A DNA stretch of 61,954 bases. It comes from Deltaproteobacteria bacterium (lineage in GTDB: Bacteria; Myxococcota_A; Polyangia; Polyangiales; JADJMO01). The position numbers were made by a program, and so were the translations under genes. The stretch lies in the NCBI GenBank assembly GCA_022843175.1, contig JALHOE010000027.1, positions 1-61,954 on the forward strand. The letters are read 5' to 3'. Positions 15,561 through 23,549 of this stretch are shown here, in pieces (position 1 is the first letter of the stretch; every line of letters starts with the position of its first letter). Under the pieces are notes generated by a model. That model saw nothing but the letters and a program-made list of their open reading frames with translations, did not search any database and was not told the origin of the DNA.

Positions 15561-15660
15561 ACGCAAACCGAAGGGTTGCGCGTGCGGGAAGCGATCGGCA
15601 TAACGAGCGTCCCGCTCCGTCTCGATCGGCTCACAGGTCGAGCTACAGAAGGTGGTTGCC

Positions 15661-16116
15661 ATGCTCAGGTACGGGACGCTGATGGTGTTGGTCGCAGCAA
15701 CGGGTTGCTCGAGCACGCATGACCCCTCGACCGAGGGTCACGACGCCGCGCACGACGACGCTCTCGTGGATGGGGGCACGGACTCTCCGAGCGACGACAC
15801 CGGCACGGTGCCGGACACCGGCGGACCGTCGGACGCCCCCTCGGGGAAGCCGGCGACGCCCACGATCACGAACGTGATGCCGATGGCAGGCGCATGGCAC
15901 GTCACGTTTACTGCGAACGACTCCGGGCTCACGAAGATCGAGCTGTGGCGCAGCAACGACGGTGCGGCGGCGACGCTGGTGAAGACCTTCGCAGGGACCG
16001 CAAAAGACTGGCATGACGCCGCCGCGCCCGGGACGACGGTTAAGTACTGCTGGACTGTAAAGACCTTCCGCGGCACCGACGCGTCGGAACCGTCCGCGGA
16101 GAAGTGCAACAAGTGA
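15661..16116 (+). CDS. Small lipoprotein with fibronectin type III-like domain
   Basis: Predicted 151-aa lipoprotein; lipobox VAATGC with Cys at about residue 17. An Asp/Gly/Pro-rich linker runs to about residue 60. A single beta domain follows (TPTITNVMPMAGAWHVTF... ELWRSNDGAAATLVKTF... YCWTVKTFRGTDASEPS), typical of fibronectin III-like folds. The first gene of an operon with the two-domain multicopper oxidase, whose ATG overlaps its TGA (TGATG at 16114-16118). The exact role is unknown. ATG 15661 was preferred over GTG 15652 for its AGAAGG ribosome site and position at the signal peptide. Confidence 0.7.
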   Translation: MLRYGTLMVLVAATGCSSTHDPSTEGHDAAHDDALVDGGTDSPSDDTGTVPDTGGPSDAPSGKPATPTITNVMPMAGAWHVTFTANDSGLTKIELWRSNDGAAATLVKTFAGTAKDWHDAAAPGTTVKYCWTVKTFRGTDASEPSAEKCNK

Positions 16117-17039
16117 TGCGACGCGCCCTCGTCTTCGCGTGTCTCGTTGCGCTCTCGGCTTGCAACGGCGAGAAGGAATCGGCCTCGGTCCCGGGAAGCG
16201 GCGTTCGCACGAACATAAAGCGCTATCCGTCGACGGGCGTGACCAAGAAGTTCGAGCTGACGATCTCCGAGTTCGACTGGGAGGTCGCCCCCGGCGCCAT
16301 CTACCAAGCGATTGGCTACAACAAGCGCATCCCCGGCCCCGTGCTTGAGGTGACGGCGGGCGACCGCGTCGAGCTCACGCTCGTCAACGAGACCAAGGAA
16401 CCGCACTCGGCGCACACGCACATCGTCGAGTTCGATACGAACAGCGATGGGGTCAAGGGCGGCGTCGCGCCCCCCGGTGGCCGCGTCACGGTCGTGTGGA
16501 ACGCTTCGTTCGCGGGAACGTTCCCGTACCACGATCACGCAGGCGGCAGCGAGGGCGAGTCCGGCGGGCTGACCGCGGGGCTCGTCGGCGCGCTCGTCGT
16601 CCATCCGCCGGACGACAAACCAGACGTGTTCCACGCAGTCGTGCTCATGGACATGGACCTGACTCGCTACAAGTCCATCCCTGGCACCGCCGACGACGCG
16701 GGCACGATCACCGACGGTGAGTTCCGGGGCGGTCACGGCTTCATGCACACGCTGAACGGTCGCGCTTACGAGGAATGGGTGCCGCCCTTCACCGCGAAGG
16801 TTGGCCAGAAGGTTCGCTGGGGTGTCGTGAGCATCGGTCGCGAGTTCCACACATTCCACGTCCACGGTCATCGTTGGATCGGGAACGACGGGGTCATGAC
16901 AGACAACATCAACCTCGGCCCCGGAACGTTCTCGTCGTTCGAGTGGATCGAGGACAACCCCGGTACATGGCTGGTGCACTGCCACGTGCCAGACCATATG
17001 GAGGGCGGAATGATCGGCCACTACGAAGTGAGCCGGTGA
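16116..17039 (+). CDS. Two-domain multicopper oxidase lipoprotein (small-laccase type)
   Basis: Predicted 307-aa lipoprotein (lipobox LSACN), the length of two-domain multicopper oxidases, which act as trimers with copper sites between subunits. Copper motifs: HSAHTHIVEF (about residue 95), FPYHDHAG (about 135), EFHTFHVHGHRW (about 250) and HCHVPDHMEGGMIGHY at the end. The domain order resembles small laccases and nitrite-reductase-related oxidases. The ATG overlaps the stop of the preceding lipoprotein gene. After its TGA the same frame stays open for 85 codons and encodes a Cys-rich stretch; see findings. Expected to work with the other two oxidases in periplasmic Cu(I) oxidation. Confidence 0.85.
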   Translation: MRRALVFACLVALSACNGEKESASVPGSGVRTNIKRYPSTGVTKKFELTISEFDWEVAPGAIYQAIGYNKRIPGPVLEVTAGDRVELTLVNETKEPHSAHTHIVEFDTNSDGVKGGVAPPGGRVTVVWNASFAGTFPYHDHAGGSEGESGGLTAGLVGALVVHPPDDKPDVFHAVVLMDMDLTRYKSIPGTADDAGTITDGEFRGGHGFMHTLNGRAYEEWVPPFTAKVGQKVRWGVVSIGREFHTFHVHGHRWIGNDGVMTDNINLGPGTFSSFEWIEDNPGTWLVHCHVPDHMEGGMIGHYEVSR

Positions 17040-17212
17040 GCGGCGCGGGAGCGCGAGGACTGTGCCCCGGCGGTCATTGTCAGCGAGTGCAACTGTGCGA
17101 CGAAGACGTATGCGTGCGGCAGCTGCCGTCGCGCGATGCTTCGGTTCAGCAAGGTCCCCATCAGCGGCGCGGCACCCTGCTCACGTGGATCGGTGTTCGG
17201 CCGAAGCCCTGA
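17036..17212 (+). CDS. Doubtful 58-aa cysteine-containing ORF
   Basis: A GTG at 17036 overlaps the multicopper oxidase stop (GTGA) and opens a 58-codon frame with four Cys in LCPGGHCQRVQLCDEDVC. In the frame continuing from the oxidase the same DNA encodes another Cys-rich stretch (ECNCATKTYACGSC). Only one of these, or neither, can be real. There is no ribosome site that decides. Listed because it fills the gap before the selenoprotein gene. Confidence 0.25.
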   Translation: MSGAGARGLCPGGHCQRVQLCDEDVCVRQLPSRDASVQQGPHQRRGTLLTWIGVRPKP

Positions 17213-17251
17213 CGAATGGCACATCAACAGTAATCGCGATAAGGACTCATC

Positions 17252-17947
17252 ATGCGTCGTCTCCTCCTCTCACTGTGCCTCACGCCGCTCATGAGCTGCG
17301 GCACGAGCTCGTCGATCCCGACGGCGGCCGACTCCGGCGTCGCCTCTGACGACACCGCGCCCACCGGGGACGCCGGGACGGATGAGACGCGGGCTTCGTG
17401 CGGAATCAACGTCGGCGACATCCTCTGCGATCTCCCGCTCGAGGGTTACGTGCGCGACGGCGTGGCGACCGGCCTCGCCACGGAAGCACCGTACGTCTCG
17501 GCGAAGCTGTCCGACATCGTCGCGCAGGGCACGCAAAAATATGCCTTCATCTGGACGTCTGCGCATTGGTGAGGCATCTGCCGCAACGCCACCAGTTCGG
17601 TGGCGCACGGTAGTGATCCGACGACCGGCGAGACGTTGACTTCGGGTGCGCAGCAGTATGCGGAACTGATGGGCAAGGCGATGTTCATCAGCCTGCTGCT
17701 CGAGGGCACGACGCCGGACAACCCCACCACGAAGACCCAGGTCTCTGGTTGGGTGAATGGCCTTAGGCTTCCCTTCACGGTCGTCCGCGATCCGGACGGT
17801 GCCGACTTCAACGCCAAGAAGACTCTCGGCGTGAAGATGACGACCTATATCGTCGAGCGCGCGACGATGAAGATCGTCGCCAAGGGGAAGCCGCCGAGCA
17901 TCACGGAGCGGGAGATGATCCCCAAGCTCAAGGCCTTGCCGGACTGA
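17252..17947 (+). CDS. Candidate selenoprotein: thioredoxin-like lipoprotein with a UGIC redox motif
   Basis: Predicted 231-aa secreted lipoprotein with an in-frame TGA at 17570-17572 (codon 107). The signal peptide ends in lipobox LMSCG. The two flanking open frames are in phase and together form one thioredoxin-like protein. The TGA falls exactly where the first redox Cys belongs: IWTSAHW-U-GICRN, compared with WVVSAQWCPPCREE in the paralogue at 19545. A 7-bp hairpin (CGCCACC / GGTGGCG, loop AGTTC, 17587-17605) starts 14 nt after the TGA, in line with bacterial SECIS rules. The C-terminal part keeps LPFTVVRDPDG and TTYIVERATMKI of redoxins. The gene ends the operon 15661-17947. If TGA is not recoded it is a broken gene. 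Confidence 0.7.
17587..17605 (+). promoter_or_regulatory. SECIS-like hairpin after the in-frame TGA
   Basis: Perfect 7-bp stem, 5-nt loop AGTTC with G as second loop base; the loop starts 21 nt after the TGA. Bacterial SECIS elements sit about 16-37 nt downstream of UGA with a G in the first two loop positions. It lies fully inside the coding region. Confidence 0.6.
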
Positions 17948-17951
17948 CTGC

Positions 17952-19472
17952 TTACTTCACGACGCGGATCTCGGACATCATCCCGCGCTCCGAGTGCTCG
18001 GGGATGTGGCAGTGGTACATCCAGCGCCCCGGCTCCTCGTCGAATCGCGCCACGACGGTGACGCTGAACCCGCTGCGGACCGTGACCGAGTCCTTCTGCG
18101 CCTGCGCCATCAGCTCGCGACGGAGCGCGAACGGCTTCTTCACCGGATCGAACAGGTCGTCGCTGTCGACGATTTGAAAGAAGAAGCCATGCAGATGGAA
18201 CACGTGGATCTGATGGCTGACGTTGTGGATCTTGAACGCCCTCGTCTCCCCGAGCTTGACCTCGATGGGCGGGATGTCGCCCCCGGCCTTCTTGTTGATC
18301 ACGAAGATCGGGTCGCCGTCCTTGCCGACGATCGGATCGTGCTCTTCCGGCGGTAGCGTGTACCCCTCGGGGCCGCCCTGCGTGCCCTGATCGAACTCGA
18401 TCAACGTGGGCTCACCGGCGGGCACAGGGATCCGGGGGATCGCCACGCCCGGCAGCGTGTCCGGCAGCGCGCGACCCGACACGCTCGAACCGATCTTCAT
18501 CTTCAACACGGTCACGGCGGGCTGCGGCGCGTCGTCCTCGGCGCGCTCGAAGGCATCGCTGGTGAGCGGTAGCTCCTTGCCCACGGCACCGTTGGGAATG
18601 AGCAGCGCGTCGTAGCGCTCGGACGGCCCGATGAGAATGTGCGTCGCTTCGTACGGCTTCTCGAACAAGCTGCCGTCGGTCCCGATGACCCGGAACGTAT
18701 GGCCCCGCACCGTCAGGTTGAAGTAGCGCAGGTTCGCGGTGTTGAGGAGCCGAAAGCGATGGATCGCCCCCGACTGCACGACGAGCGAACGATCGGTTCG
18801 TCCATTCACGAGCAACGTGTCGCTCCATCGTCCGTGCAACTTGAGGTCGAGCGGGAGCTGCGCGTAATCGTCGAGATCGGGCGGGAGCGCGCCGTCGGCC
18901 TGCAGCCTCACGTCGTCGAGCACGAGGACGTGCTCGTGATCGACGCGGGGCTCGCCGGGTCCGCGCACGCGGATCACGCCATAGAGGCCGCGCTCGATCT
19001 GTGTGTCGGAACGGTGGTGTGGATGGAACCAGAAGAGGCCGGGATCGCGGACGACGAACGAGTACTCGAACGTCCCGCCGGGCATCACCGGGTTCTGCAC
19101 GACGAGCGCGCCGTCCATCGAGTTCGGGAGCCGCAGCCCGTGCCAGTGGATCGTCGTCGCCTGCGGGAGCTCGTTCTTGAAGTGGATGACGAGGCGCGTA
19201 CCGACGGCGACGTCGATGAACGGGCCGGGGACTGTACCGTTGTAGGTCCAAGCCGCGGTTTTCTTGCCGGGCGTGAGCTCCACCGTCGCGACCTTGGCCA
19301 CGAGGTCCATCTCGAACACCCCCGGGTCGGGATCCTTGTCGGTCGCAGACGTGATTCCCGGGTTGTCGTCGAGCACCGGCGCCTGCTCGGGTTCGCGGGC
19401 GGTGCAGCTCGACGCCATGACGACGACGAGCGAGACGAGCAGAGCGACGACCCGAAGCCACATCAGCCGCAT
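17952..19472 (-). CDS. Three-domain multicopper oxidase lipoprotein (second three-domain copy)
   Basis: Predicted 506-aa lipoprotein (lipobox ASSCT). Copper motifs are HWHGLRLPNSMDG (about residue 110), FWFHPHHRSDTQIERGLYG (about 145), HVFHLHGFFFQI (about 425) and HCHIPEHSERGMM near the end. The domain layout equals that at 12559 but the sequence differs clearly, so they are paralogues and not a recent copy. It is probably co-transcribed with the thioredoxin-like gene at 19545-20300 (72 bp gap) under operator copy 11. It converges on the selenoprotein gene with 4 bp between stops. ATG 19472 or ATG 19463 may be the start. Confidence 0.87.
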   Translation of the reverse strand: MRLMWLRVVALLVSLVVVMASSCTAREPEQAPVLDDNPGITSATDKDPDPGVFEMDLVAKVATVELTPGKKTAAWTYNGTVPGPFIDVAVGTRLVIHFKNELPQATTIHWHGLRLPNSMDGALVVQNPVMPGGTFEYSFVVRDPGLFWFHPHHRSDTQIERGLYGVIRVRGPGEPRVDHEHVLVLDDVRLQADGALPPDLDDYAQLPLDLKLHGRWSDTLLVNGRTDRSLVVQSGAIHRFRLLNTANLRYFNLTVRGHTFRVIGTDGSLFEKPYEATHILIGPSERYDALLIPNGAVGKELPLTSDAFERAEDDAPQPAVTVLKMKIGSSVSGRALPDTLPGVAIPRIPVPAGEPTLIEFDQGTQGGPEGYTLPPEEHDPIVGKDGDPIFVINKKAGGDIPPIEVKLGETRAFKIHNVSHQIHVFHLHGFFFQIVDSDDLFDPVKKPFALRRELMAQAQKDSVTVRSGFSVTVVARFDEEPGRWMYHCHIPEHSERGMMSEIRVVK

Positions 19473-19544
19473 TGCCCGATTCTGACACGCCGGCAGCGCC
19501 GCCGCCGAGTGACAGTGCGGAGCGAATCAGTAGCGCACGGTGGC

Positions 19545-20300
19545 TCAGTCCGCGGCGGCGTCGGCCGGTGCCGCCCCCGCGTCCGTCGCCATTCCGCTGT
19601 CCGTCGAGGTTCCCACATCGGCGCTCGTCCCCGCGTCCGTCGCCAGCGGCGGCGCTCCGTTCTTGGTCAGCATCGAGCTCAGAGCGGGGATCGTCGTCGC
19701 ATCGGGGTTCACGCCCTGAATGATGCGATAGACCTTCATGTCGCGCGGGTTGATCACGTAGTTGTAGGGCAAGCCGACGCTACCGCTCGATGGTAGCGTC
19801 TGCGGCTCGTCATCGAGGACGATGTCGAAGTTGAGCTTGTAGGCGGTGAGCCACTGGTCGACCGTGAGCTGCGTCGCGGGGTTTCGCTTGTTGTCCTGAA
19901 TCATCGCGGTCGCGAATCGCGCACCGCGCGGGCGATAGAGGCGGTCGAGCATCCCCGGCAGGATCTTCGCCTCCTCGCGGCAAGGCGGGCACCACTGGGC
20001 GGACACGACCCAGTAGATGCCGTTGATCCCGCGCGTGCCGTCGGGATCGTAGTAGTCGATCATCGAGATGTCGGTCCACTCGCCCTTGCCGTCCTTGTAC
20101 CCCTTGAACGAGAAGTTCGGGAACGTCTCGCCCACCTTCAGCCCGTAGGGGCCCTCCGGATACGTGAGCCACGGCGCGGTGTCCTCGACGGGCGCGGTGT
20201 CCTCGACGGGCGCGGCGGAGTCGGCAGCGACGGCTGCGTCCTTGGGTGAGCTACACGCGTTGAGCACGAACATGCAGCCGACAGCAGCGAGACGTTTCAT
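19545..20300 (-). CDS. TlpA-like thioredoxin-fold lipoprotein
   Basis: Predicted 251-aa lipoprotein (lipobox LNACSS). Redoxin domain with VGETFPNFSFKGY, then the active site VSAQWCPPCREEAK (Cys pair near residue 108) and a later cis-Pro region (GLPYNYVINP). A low-complexity Asp/Ala/Thr tail follows from about residue 215. It probably reduces or isomerises disulfides, or protects Cys of envelope copper proteins. It is the Cys-containing relative of the candidate selenoprotein at 17252. ATG 20300 follows a GGAGGAG ribosome site. Operator copy 11 is 93 bp upstream. Confidence 0.82.
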   Translation of the reverse strand: MKRLAAVGCMFVLNACSSPKDAAVAADSAAPVEDTAPVEDTAPWLTYPEGPYGLKVGETFPNFSFKGYKDGKGEWTDISMIDYYDPDGTRGINGIYWVVSAQWCPPCREEAKILPGMLDRLYRPRGARFATAMIQDNKRNPATQLTVDQWLTAYKLNFDIVLDDEPQTLPSSGSVGLPYNYVINPRDMKVYRIIQGVNPDATTIPALSSMLTKNGAPPLATDAGTSADVGTSTDSGMATDAGAAPADAAAD

Positions 20301-20392
20301 GAGAGCTCCTCCGCGACGCGTCGTTCGTCCCACGAATCACCACGTTCGTCCAGCCGCGCCTCGTCGGCAGGTTCAAGTTCCCGGGGAGCACC

Positions 20393-20409
20393 GTGACCCG
20401 CGCGGTCAC
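20393..20409. promoter_or_regulatory. Palindromic operator, copy 11
   Basis: GTGACCCGCGCGGTCAC, nearly perfect. It is in the 303-bp divergent gap between the TlpA-like gene (minus) and the Lgt-like gene (plus). A -24/-12-like string on the minus strand at 20318-20332 is unlikely to be used because its start would cut off the ribosome site. Confidence 0.75.
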
Positions 20410-20603
20410 GCGGATTCCGGGAAACCTCGGCGGTGAGTGCCAGTGCACGCAAGGACGAGCCAGTCTCTTCCATACGTGACGTGTAATGGCCGACGGGGCG
20501 CTACGTCTTCTCCATCGAGCGGCCACGCCCACCGGCTTGCCGAATCGTCGATCGATACCGCGTGTCTTTGTGGACGTACCCCGTAGAAGGAGATCGCAGT
20601 CGA

Positions 20604-21377
20604 ATGCTCCCGTACATCGCTCAGCCGCAGATCGTTCTCGGACCGCTCACGATCTACGCCTTCGGCGTACTCGTCGCGATCGCGGTGCTCGTTGGAACAG
20701 AGGTGGCGCGACGCCGCGCAGCGCGCATCGGGCTCGCCGCCGGTGAGATCGACCGCATGCTGACCTGGGTCGTGGTCGGGGGCTTCCTCGGCGGGCACGT
20801 GCTCGATCTGCTGCTCTACGAACCGCGAGCGCTCCTCACCGATCCCTTCCGACTGCTTCGGCTCTGGGATGGGCTTGGATCCTTCGGCGGCTTCGTCGGC
20901 GCAGTGGCGGGCGCGGGGCTCTTCATCTGGCGTCGGCAGCCGGTGCGCCCCTGGCGTCACGTCGACGCGATCGCCTACGCCTTTCCTTTCGGCTGGATCT
21001 TCGGTCGAATCGGCTGCGCGCTCGCGTTCGATCACGTCGGGCGGCCCACCGACTTCGTGCTCGGTCAGGAATATGTCGACGGCGTCGTTCGGCACAACCT
21101 CGGACTCGAAGAGGCTCTGTACACGATCGGCATCGCCACGCTCTTCGCGGTTCTCGGTCGTCGTCGGCGTCCCGCCGGCTTCTTCACTGGACTCCTCGCG
21201 CTGCTCTACGCGCCGGTACGCTTCGCACTCGATGCGCTTCGCGTCGGCGATGCTCGATACCTGGGCTTGACACCAGCGCAGTACGGCAGCGTGTTGCTCG
21301 CGGTCGTGGGCGCGGTCCTGCTCATCGCGAGCGGTCGTCGCGGAGGGGACGACCGCAGCTCGCTCGCGCCGGCATGA
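20604..21377 (+). CDS. Prolipoprotein diacylglyceryl transferase-like membrane enzyme
   Basis: Predicted 257-aa protein with about seven membrane helices. It carries the Lgt signature GRIGCALAFDHVGRPTD (about residues 134-150), PLTIYAFGVLVA at the first helix and GLEEALYTIG. Lgt attaches diacylglycerol to the lipobox Cys of lipoproteins. The island encodes about ten lipoproteins, so a dedicated second Lgt is plausible; the genome should have its main lgt elsewhere. The start ATG 20604 follows AGAAGGAG; an ATG at 20562 is further upstream. Operator copy 11 lies about 195 bp upstream. Confidence 0.8.
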   Translation: MLPYIAQPQIVLGPLTIYAFGVLVAIAVLVGTEVARRRAARIGLAAGEIDRMLTWVVVGGFLGGHVLDLLLYEPRALLTDPFRLLRLWDGLGSFGGFVGAVAGAGLFIWRRQPVRPWRHVDAIAYAFPFGWIFGRIGCALAFDHVGRPTDFVLGQEYVDGVVRHNLGLEEALYTIGIATLFAVLGRRRRPAGFFTGLLALLYAPVRFALDALRVGDARYLGLTPAQYGSVLLAVVGAVLLIASGRRGGDDRSSLAPA

Positions 21378-21560
21378 CCCGGGCGCACGCTGCACTCCGC
21401 GAGATCGACGAGCGAAGGCCGGGCATGCTTTTCATTCGGGCCCGGGTAGCGATGGCGCTCCCCCGGGCCTGGTGCGACGCGCATGGTCGCTCGATTACTG
21501 GGCAACGAATGGCGACTGATTCGGCCGTAATGGCGTCTCTGACGCTGCGTCGGCGACGTT

Positions 21561-21606
21561 GAACGAAAAGACGATGCCCCCGTTCCTTTCGGTGCGGGGG
21601 CATCGT
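21561..21606 (-). terminator. Intrinsic terminator of the two-peptide operon
   Basis: On the minus strand a 12-bp stem (ACGATGCCCCCG / CGGGGGCATCGT, 21571-21606) is followed by CTTTTCGTT. It starts 14 bp after the stop of the 50-aa peptide gene. The remaining gap back to the Lgt-like gene (21378-21560) shows nothing else. Confidence 0.85.
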
Positions 21607-21620
21607 GCAAGGGCCGCTTG

Positions 21621-21773
21621 TCAGCCGCGAGCCGGCGAATCGCCGCAATGCCGAAGCATCGGCGCATCACCGCAGTGGCGCATCGTGGGAGAATCGCCGC
21701 AGTGACGCAGACGCGTCTTCGCTGCAGGACGAACCTTCACGTTCGTGATCTTCGTCGTACGGAGAGCTTTCAT
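21621..21773 (-). CDS. 50-aa peptide with three RHCGD(S/A)P repeats (novel peptide family, locus 2)
   Basis: Second gene of a two-peptide operon. Residues 1-23 form a basic leader (KIT-NVKVR at 8-15, AK at 18-19). Residues 23-47 hold three copies of RHCGDSP or RHCGDAP with an exact 9-residue period (Cys 25, 34, 43; His 24, 33, 42), then PARG. Leader and repeats match the 46-aa peptide at 10753. No signal peptide or known domain. Support for reality: shared repeat and leader, coupling to the upstream peptide gene (14-nt gap), a strong terminator after it and a near-perfect sigma-54 promoter in front of the operon. Cys/His pairs next to Asp suit soft-metal binding or post-translational modification. 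Confidence 0.78.
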   Translation of the reverse strand: MKALRTTKITNVKVRPAAKTRLRHCGDSPTMRHCGDAPMLRHCGDSPARG

Positions 21774-21787
21774 GGGGGTGTTTCCGA

Positions 21788-21865
21788 TCAGCAGTTGCAG
21801 AAGAACCCGCAGGCTCCGCCGCAGAACTTGCAGTTGGTCTCACGGATACGGACACGAATCTTCAT
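21788..21865 (-). CDS. 25-aa five-cysteine peptide
   Basis: First gene of the two-peptide operon. The basic leader KIRVRIRETN is followed by a glycine/phenylalanine core with Cys at 12, 15, 19, 23 and 25 (CxxC, CGFFCNC). It has a very strong ribosome site (GAGGAGG, 21873-21879) 7 nt before ATG 21865 and a sigma-54 promoter at 21931. No secretion signal. The size and Cys density recall tiny metallothionein-like Cu(I) ligands or a RiPP precursor. I know no named family for it. Confidence 0.72.
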   Translation of the reverse strand: MKIRVRIRETNCKFCGGACGFFCNC

Positions 21866-21930
21866 CTGCGAACCTCCTCGGCAGCGAGTCTAACAGGGCC
21901 GCGGCGAAGTGCCGTGGCGGCGCACGCATC

Positions 21931-21946
21931 TGCAAGGCGAGTGCCC
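21931..21946 (-). promoter_or_regulatory. Sigma-54 (-24/-12) promoter of the two-peptide operon
   Basis: On the minus strand GGGCACTCGCCTTGCA is an almost exact match to TGGCAC-N5-TTGCA (GG 21946-21945, GC 21933-21932). The predicted start near 21920 leaves a 55-nt leader. Operators lie directly upstream at 21971-21987 and 22076-22092; a further half-site GGTCAC (21951-21956) abuts the promoter. Confidence 0.8.
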
Positions 21947-21970
21947 GCGCGGTCACCTCGACGTTGCGCC

Positions 21971-21987
21971 GTGACCGCGCCGGCCAC
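21971..21987. promoter_or_regulatory. Palindromic operator, copy 12 (one mismatch)
   Basis: GTGACCGCGCCGGCCAC, 25 bp upstream of the -24 element of the two-peptide operon. Confidence 0.6.
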
Positions 21988-22075
21988 AGTCCGGATATCG
22001 CGGCGAGTGCGTTGCGCTGCACCCCGGAGCGATCTTCGCTCGAGTGGCCGGGAGAGCGACTAACAGGCGGCTCGT

Positions 22076-22092
22076 GTGACCGTTTCAGTCAC
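22076..22092. promoter_or_regulatory. Palindromic operator, copy 13
   Basis: GTGACCGTTTCAGTCAC, about 130 bp upstream of the two-peptide promoter. The stretch 22093-22315 between copies 13 and 14 has open frames on both strands but no ribosome site or recognisable protein; I call no gene there. Confidence 0.7.
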
Positions 22093-22315
22093 CCAAGGAC
22101 CTGTGGCTCGCACCAGCGCGGTGAACGGCCAACCCCGGCGACCCAAACGCTCTCGCTCGGGAGGTCGAGCCGGAAGAGGAAGCGGCGATGTCCGGGCGCT
22201 GCGGGCGCTGAGCTTCGGCGGGCGAGCGTTGTCCCTCGATGCCGGAGGTCTGCGTGCCATCCGTGCGCTCGAGACGCTCGCGCACTCCCATTTCGGTGCT
22301 CGACGTGTTTCAACC

Positions 22316-22332
22316 GTGACTCGGTCGGTCAC
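22316..22332. promoter_or_regulatory. Palindromic operator, copy 14
   Basis: GTGACTCGGTCGGTCAC, 60 bp upstream of the NHL-propeller lipoprotein gene at 22392. Confidence 0.7.
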
Positions 22333-22391
22333 TCCTGTAGCGGTCGCGGGTCGTTGCGATCGTCGGTCGCGCATGGCAAGACCTGGGGCGC

Positions 22392-23549
22392 ATGAACAGC
22401 TCTGCCCTCGCGATTCTGATCTCGGTGTGTTCCGTGATGCCGGTGGCTTGCGGCGGGACCGCACAGACGCCGCCGACCGGCGGCAACAACGTGACCGCGG
22501 ACGCCGCACCGATTCGCGCGCCGCAGCTCGGCGACGGAACTCTCGGGTCCGTGACGCTAACGGAGATCGTGGGCCCATCGGCGCGACTCCTGACGCCTCG
22601 CGATCTCGCCTTCAATCCCTTGCGCCCGAACGAATTGTGGGTCGTGAACTTCGCCGACGACAGCATGGTGATCGCCTTCGACGTCCTCGCCGATCCGATC
22701 GCGACCGAGCGCCGCAAGGACGCAGCGGCCAATCACTTCATGGCGAAACCGTCGTCGCTCGCCTTCGGTGCGCCGGAGACAACCTTCGGCATCCCTGGCA
22801 CGTTCGCGACCTGCCAGGAATCGCGGAACACCTACGATGACAAGGCCGCGCCGAACGACTTCATGGGACCGGCGCTGTGGTCCTCGGATCTGTCGGTCTT
22901 CGCGAAGAAGAACCCGAACGGGCTGGGTTCCCACCTCGACATGCTGCACAACAGCCCGTTGTGCGTTGGCATCGCGCACGAGAGCGCGAACATCTATTGG
23001 ACGTTCGCCGGCCGAACGAACTCGATCGTCAAGTACGACTTCGGCAAGGACAACGACATTGGCCTGGACGACCACTCCGATGGTTCGTCGTGGCGATACG
23101 GCTACGGCCTCTTCAAGTACGAACCCGGCGTTCCCGGTCATCTCGTGTTCGACGCGACCGACGCGATGCTCTACATCGCCGACACGGGCAACGGCCGGAT
23201 CGCGAAGCTCGACACCAAGAGCGGCACGGTCGGGCGCAAGCTTTCACTGAAAGAGGAGAACGCGCTGTACGTCGAGATGACCGGCGCAACGATCACCGAC
23301 GTCGTGCCGGGAGGCGGTGACCTGCAAAAGCCGTCCGGCCTCGAGCTCCGCGACGGCTACCTGTTCGTCTCCGACAGCGCCACGTCGAAGATCACGGCGT
23401 TTACTCCAAGCGGAGAGCGCGTCAACCAGCTCGACACCGGCCTCGAGCCCGGCTCGCTCGCCGGAATTGCCTTCGGTCCCGGCGGAAAGCTGTACTTCGT
23501 TGACGTGAAGGGCAACCGAGTCTTTCGCGTCGACGTGACACCGCGCTGA
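22392..23549 (+). CDS. NHL/beta-propeller lipoprotein
   Basis: Predicted 385-aa lipoprotein with lipobox PVACGG. The body is a beta-propeller of NHL/six-bladed type, with blades such as PRDLAFNPLRPNELWVVN, GHLVFDATDAMLYIADTGN and LAGIAFGPGGKLYFVDVKGN. It also has two long insertions and a Cys pair (TFATCQES and SPLCVG). This is the second propeller lipoprotein of the island, unrelated in detail to that at 2008. Function unknown; it may hold a periplasmic metal or redox partner. Operator copy 14 lies 60 bp upstream. Confidence 0.72.
   Translation: MNSSALAILISVCSVMPVACGGTAQTPPTGGNNVTADAAPIRAPQLGDGTLGSVTLTEIVGPSARLLTPRDLAFNPLRPNELWVVNFADDSMVIAFDVLADPIATERRKDAAANHFMAKPSSLAFGAPETTFGIPGTFATCQESRNTYDDKAAPNDFMGPALWSSDLSVFAKKNPNGLGSHLDMLHNSPLCVGIAHESANIYWTFAGRTNSIVKYDFGKDNDIGLDDHSDGSSWRYGYGLFKYEPGVPGHLVFDATDAMLYIADTGNGRIAKLDTKSGTVGRKLSLKEENALYVEMTGATITDVVPGGGDLQKPSGLELRDGYLFVSDSATSKITAFTPSGERVNQLDTGLEPGSLAGIAFGPGGKLYFVDVKGNRVFRVDVTPR

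Follow-up and report, generated by a model that had tools for sequence, protein, structure and literature searches.

Selenoproteins with a thioredoxin-like fold and a UxxC motif, in which selenocysteine (Sec) takes the place of the first redox cysteine, are among the known systems closest to the gene analysed here. The May 2026 catalogue comprises 119 families or subfamilies of prokaryotic selenoproteins, among them several of the UxxC thioredoxin-like kind: a Prx-like thiol:disulfide oxidoreductase (PF00578), a thiol-disulfide isomerase-like protein (cd02966), a redoxin family protein (PF08534) and a thioredoxin-like protein with a HUIPC motif (NF047660) (PMC13188914). The bacterial SECIS element (bSECIS) is described there as a stem of 4-16 bp with an energy of -7.5 kcal/mol or lower, carrying a loop of 3-9 nt that lies 16-37 nt after the UGA and has a G in its first two positions (PMC13188914). 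Myxobacteria are little treated in the selenoprotein literature consulted, and a search of journals outside subscription found no paper on their selenoproteins. Yet the source genome of our window (the whole stretch of 61,954 nt that was analysed) carries at least seven members of one family with a TGA at the same column, the further homologues being located on contigs C1 (82% identity to the window protein), C8, C17 (two copies), C37 and C329.

The reading frame in the window contains a single internal TGA, with the flanks TSAHW-U-GICRNA in phase on either side (Table 1). The placement of the TGA at the first redox-Cys position (HW-TGA-GIC), as put forward in the original prediction, is thus confirmed. 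The ATG is preceded by a Shine-Dalgarno-like AAGGA, and the encoded protein runs from the signal peptide through a low-complexity linker to the domain that carries the in-frame TGA. Comparison with the C1 copy gives a dN/dS of 0.10 after the TGA and of 0.09 for the folded part that precedes it (dS about 0.55), a substitution pattern which indicates that the protein past the UGA has been kept intact by selection.

Table 1. Features of the window around the putative selenoprotein gene
Feature	Coordinates	Strand	Remarks
Cupredoxin/multicopper-oxidase-like neighbour	16104..17039	+	NCBIfam matches; copy with 94% identity next to the C1 duplicate
Remnant of deleted partner lipoprotein gene	17171..17209	+	Last ~12 codons, TLLTWIGVRPKP-stop; 11/11 identity to C1 partner residues 298-308
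Putative Sec-TlpA lipoprotein gene	17252..17947	+	231 aa via one TGA; stop 17945-17947; in phase both sides; homologues open with Cys
Signal peptide with lipobox LMSC	17252..17299	+	Read from sequence; lipobox in homologues too
TGA codon 107, putative selenocysteine, first redox position of UGIC	17570..17572	+	TGA in 48/48 readthrough homologues; Cys in others
Bacterial SECIS-like hairpin, 7 bp, 5-nt loop AGUUC	17587..17605	+	Stem 17587-17593 / 17599-17605, loop 17594-17598; loop starts 21 nt after TGA; fits PMC13188914 model
Multicopper oxidase neighbour, convergent with the Sec gene	17952..19472	-	NCBIfam; 89% copy at C1; 63% homologue near the G178 Sec gene
Distant Cys-type (QWCPPC) TlpA-like lipoprotein	19545..20333	-	AhpC-TSA 3.3e-6, ResA 1.1e-7

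Relatives turned up in 90 of the 289 genomes covered by a search across the class. From 60 stretches fetched from Polyangia-like genomes, a sample chosen towards TGA members, we recovered above 60 bits 48 members with TGA and 12 with Cys at one column; the internal stop is TGA in every one of the 48 and never TAA or TAG. The homologues therefore show Cys or TGA exactly at this position, which runs against the random nonsense change that the original prediction had considered as a possible refutation. The invariant columns of the alignment are one Gly, the U/C position and the second Cys. The named relatives, obtained with the C-terminal region of the UPGC subgroup as query, are genome bins of uncultured Myxococcales, Myxococcaceae or deltaproteobacteria. 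Five Sec/Cys changes are required to explain the tree, four of them forced by well-supported branches, and two Cys clades (G224, G258 and G275; G166, G174 and G255) are nested in Sec groups. Neither SelA nor tRNA-Sec was found above cut-off in any of these six genomes, some of which are incomplete drafts, and the nested clades fit a change from Sec to Cys upon loss of the Sec system. In a TlpA-like gene at L083:5970-6635 (G010:C705), the TGA immediately precedes CGPC and probably occupies the place of the usual Trp; this gene was left out of the Sec count.

As judged from sequence, the set needed for UGA decoding is present in the source genome (9.75 Mb, 470 contigs): SelB scores above the curated cut-off on contig C405, a tRNA-Sec with a UCA anticodon lies on C76, SelA on C455 and SelD on C44, the latter itself of the Sec type with the active site HGAGUACK encoded with a TGA. 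All four of selA, selB, selC and selD, whose absence (in the case of selB or selC) would have spoken against a selenoprotein, were thus found. The formate dehydrogenase alpha homologues of this genome (G000:C114:5839-7857) have no in-frame TGA despite the complete Sec machinery, so that the commonest bacterial selenoprotein is apparently not what maintains the Sec system here. Among the 25 genomes bearing TGA members, tRNA-Sec was detected in 23, SelA in 23 and at least one of the two in all, compared with SelA or tRNA-Sec in 8 of 28 Cys-only genomes (p = 1.6e-8).

The perfect 7-bp hairpin with a G in its loop that had been noticed downstream of the TGA is confirmed and agrees with the published bSECIS model. 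It starts 14 nt past the TGA (CGCCACC-AGUUC-GGUGGCG), and its loop distance (21 nt), loop length (5 nt), stem (7 bp), first loop nucleotides (AG) and stem energy (-12.5 kcal/mol) all lie within the model; the 51-nt folded stretch has a z of -3.0. No Rfam match was obtained at the window hairpin. About 11% of synonymous recodings of the window copy give seven pairs as well, so the window hairpin alone is weak evidence and the family-wide test is decisive. In this test, 71% of the Sec genes have a hairpin that fits the SECIS model, compared with 0 of 17 Cys control sequences, and the mean best hairpin energy is -9.5 kcal/mol for the Sec genes versus -2.0 kcal/mol for the Cys controls. When 44 Sec sequences are aligned without gaps, the covariation of helix 18-24/33-39 reaches 0.248 versus 0.150 in shuffled data (0 of 500 as high), with slid partners giving at most 0.088, and the helix shows 20 double-sided changes; hairpins of the window type have the same stem and a loop one codon shorter. 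Over the family, pairing averages 6.04 compared with 5.02 in synonymous recodings (sd 0.12; 0 of 2000 as high), pairing in this register being incomplete in several homologues. A chance hairpin was rejected on the basis of the Cys and synonymous-codon controls.

A pseudogene or sequencing error, in which a chance nonsense mutation has split a TlpA-like gene, would account for the single stop between two open halves, and the upstream partner gene of the window copy has clearly been deleted. However, the same TGA is shared by homologues in about 25 genomes, the low dN/dS continues past it and the Sec machinery tracks it; conservation already refutes a nonsense mutation, and with the selection and co-occurrence data the probability of this explanation is close to nil. 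Readthrough of UGA is known in some bacteria, and in principle the codon could be read as Trp or Cys, or a near-cognate tRNA could suppress it with no selenium involved. Against this, the homologues carry Cys and not Trp at the column, the genome encodes a true tRNA-Sec (UCA) together with SelA, SelB and SelD, and the covarying hairpin is present behind TGA codons but not behind Cys codons. Decoding as Trp was rejected on conservation, machinery co-occurrence and the Cys and synonymous-codon controls, and we consider any decoding of this UGA without selenium to be highly improbable. Taken together, the machinery, the TGA/Cys column, the hairpin covariation and the dN/dS give strong support to reading the gene as a selenoprotein.

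The window protein has no Pfam match and no NCBIfam match up to E = 1. Among 34 family members, Pfam AhpC-TSA matches weakly in 19 and NCBIfam ResA/StoA weakly in two, and no score lies above a curated selenoprotein family model. A family profile search placed Bacillus subtilis ResA best (6.6e-8), with the active sites aligned, followed by StoA and DsbE-like proteins. With the predicted model of the domain (pLDDT 66, moderate confidence; pTM 0.72), Foldseek retrieved peroxiredoxins, TlpA, ResA and Etrx lipoproteins, an archaeal peroxiredoxin being the top match and yeast Sco1 being included. In both the model and the profile alignment, the UxxC/CxxC motif opens the active-site helix of a thioredoxin fold. 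The expected lipoprotein with a thioredoxin-like fold and UxxC is supported in all three respects, and the protein is very probably a TlpA-like redox lipoprotein that contains Sec. Where classic TlpA/ResA have the cis-Pro loop (PTTF), most Sec members show RETTY or KMTTY in the ResA alignment, and the chemistry may therefore differ from that of ResA; LPY is kept in the Cys protein at 19545-20333 and in the C329 Sec protein.

This nearby QWCPPC protein, originally taken for a Cys-containing paralogue, is real but distant, with 28% identity to the window Sec protein and a separate branch in the tree; the far closer copy is that on C1 (82%), which has a TGA. The QWCPPC branch has a Sec version of its own (ALWUSVC; L101:638-1294, minus strand, G000:C329; 43% identity), representing a Sec/Cys exchange that occurred independently. 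Both the window copy and that on C1 belong to a duplicated multi-gene block (window ~15652-23549 and G000:C1:70001-86800, L097) with 82-95% protein identity, containing genes for an FN3 protein, a cupredoxin, Sec-TlpA, a multicopper oxidase (MCO), Cys-TlpA, an Lgt-like protein and an NHL protein. The last of these, a beta-propeller lipoprotein at 22392-23549 of the window, has relatives that recur next to TlpA genes of the Sec or Cys type in L074, L084 and L104.

An all-against-all comparison of neighbours yielded one recurrent gene, encoding a lipoprotein of about 300 aa that belongs to no Pfam family. It is predicted to consist of beta domains that weakly resemble carboxypeptidase-D accessory and ZU5 domains, and its residues C52, C63, C87-x3-C91 and HGRP are invariant or nearly so. 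Of the 57 loci sampled, 25 have this partner gene immediately upstream and in the same orientation, Cys versions included; many Sec copies, such as those on C8, C37 and C329, have no adjacent partner. The redoxin co-occurs in 56 of 69 partner-bearing genomes (p = 1e-23), an association that is explained in part by shared ancestry. At C1 an intact partner is found 40 nt upstream. Its deletion in the window makes the window copy an atypical member, the expression and use of which are less sure than those of the family. From gene order, we tentatively propose that the partner lipoprotein could be the client of Sec-TlpA, at somewhat less than even chances. A recurrent Ser/Thr kinase neighbour was set aside because such kinases are common in these genomes.

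With regard to function, activity as a peroxidase of the peroxiredoxin kind, in place of disulfide reduction, would suit the archaeal peroxiredoxin at the top of the Foldseek matches and the weak AhpC-TSA matches in over half of the members. Yet the family has its UxxC at the thioredoxin position and not the peroxidatic TxxC/TxxU of Prx (PMC13188914), the PxxxTxxU motif of Sec-type peroxiredoxins is absent from it, and the profile search leads to ResA, StoA and DsbE. We therefore regard a peroxidase as quite unlikely, and thiol-disulfide reductase or isomerase chemistry as fairly likely. The original prediction further assigned the gene to a copper regulon, where it might keep the thiols of MCOs or copper carriers reduced, as TlpA or Sco does with cytochrome oxidase. 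In support of this, the fold matches include Sco1, a CzcA-type efflux pump lies 8 kb from the gene, and the gene has MCOs on its flanks at three loci (the window, the C1 duplicate and G178). However, these three MCO-flanked loci are of the same family, and tblastn of the window neighbours against all fetched loci found no MCO neighbours at the others, so the arrangement may be local synteny of one family; moreover, the partner lipoprotein is a far more frequent neighbour. The copper regulon is accordingly not established and is best described as a local possibility, and a main role of Sec-TlpA within it seems doubtful.

The best reading is that these proteins probably form a new subfamily, with Sec, of the extracytoplasmic TlpA-like thiol-disulfide reductases and may serve a partner lipoprotein. 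UGA would be decoded as Sec by SelA, SelB, tRNA-Sec and SelD with the help of the SECIS-like hairpin, giving a lipoprotein that would face the outside or the periplasm and carry a thioredoxin domain of the ResA/TlpA kind, with Sec as its first redox residue (UGIC). After export, the Sec/Cys pair would make and break a selenenylsulfide, the protein thus serving as thiol-disulfide reductase or isomerase. Within the family, the adjacent partner lipoprotein would be the likeliest native client; the window copy, having lost its partner, would have to serve the C1 partner or another client, or be a spare. We give roughly even chances to the wider proposal that the family constitutes a two-lipoprotein redox system (Sec-TlpA and the CxxxC/HGRP partner) at the surface or in the periplasm of Polyangia-like myxobacteria, is a main user of Sec there and reverts to Cys in lineages where the machinery is lost. 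As standard gene callers cut at UGA, a whole redox family has been overlooked. Sec and Cys versions occurring with the same partner, with a change from Sec to Cys where Sec decoding was not found, amount to a natural experiment, which makes the question of why selenium is used rather than sulphur testable outside the cytoplasm.

The hairpin resembles the bacterial SECIS of the E. coli fdhF type in stem, loop G, spacing and energy, with the loop AGGUCU in some homologues, and differs from it in having no Rfam match. With the catalogued UxxC selenoproteins the family has in common the thioredoxin fold with UxxC and a bacterial SECIS (PMC13188914), whereas their NCBIfam models match 0 of 34 members, and it is apparently not named in current protein-family libraries. 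The cd02966 and PF08534 selenoproteins have no NCBIfam model and fall outside this sequence comparison, so that an overlap with them is possible; for this reason, the novelty originally claimed holds at the level of a Sec subfamily within a known kind of protein and not at that of a category. Finally, the family shares with the ResA/TlpA-type oxidoreductases, and with pneumococcal Etrx1 and Etrx2, the membrane anchor, the thioredoxin fold and an active site aligned to CxxC; it departs from them in the cis-Pro loop, which appears unconserved in most members, in the window protein lying outside the NCBIfam models, and in having Sec as the first residue of the motif.
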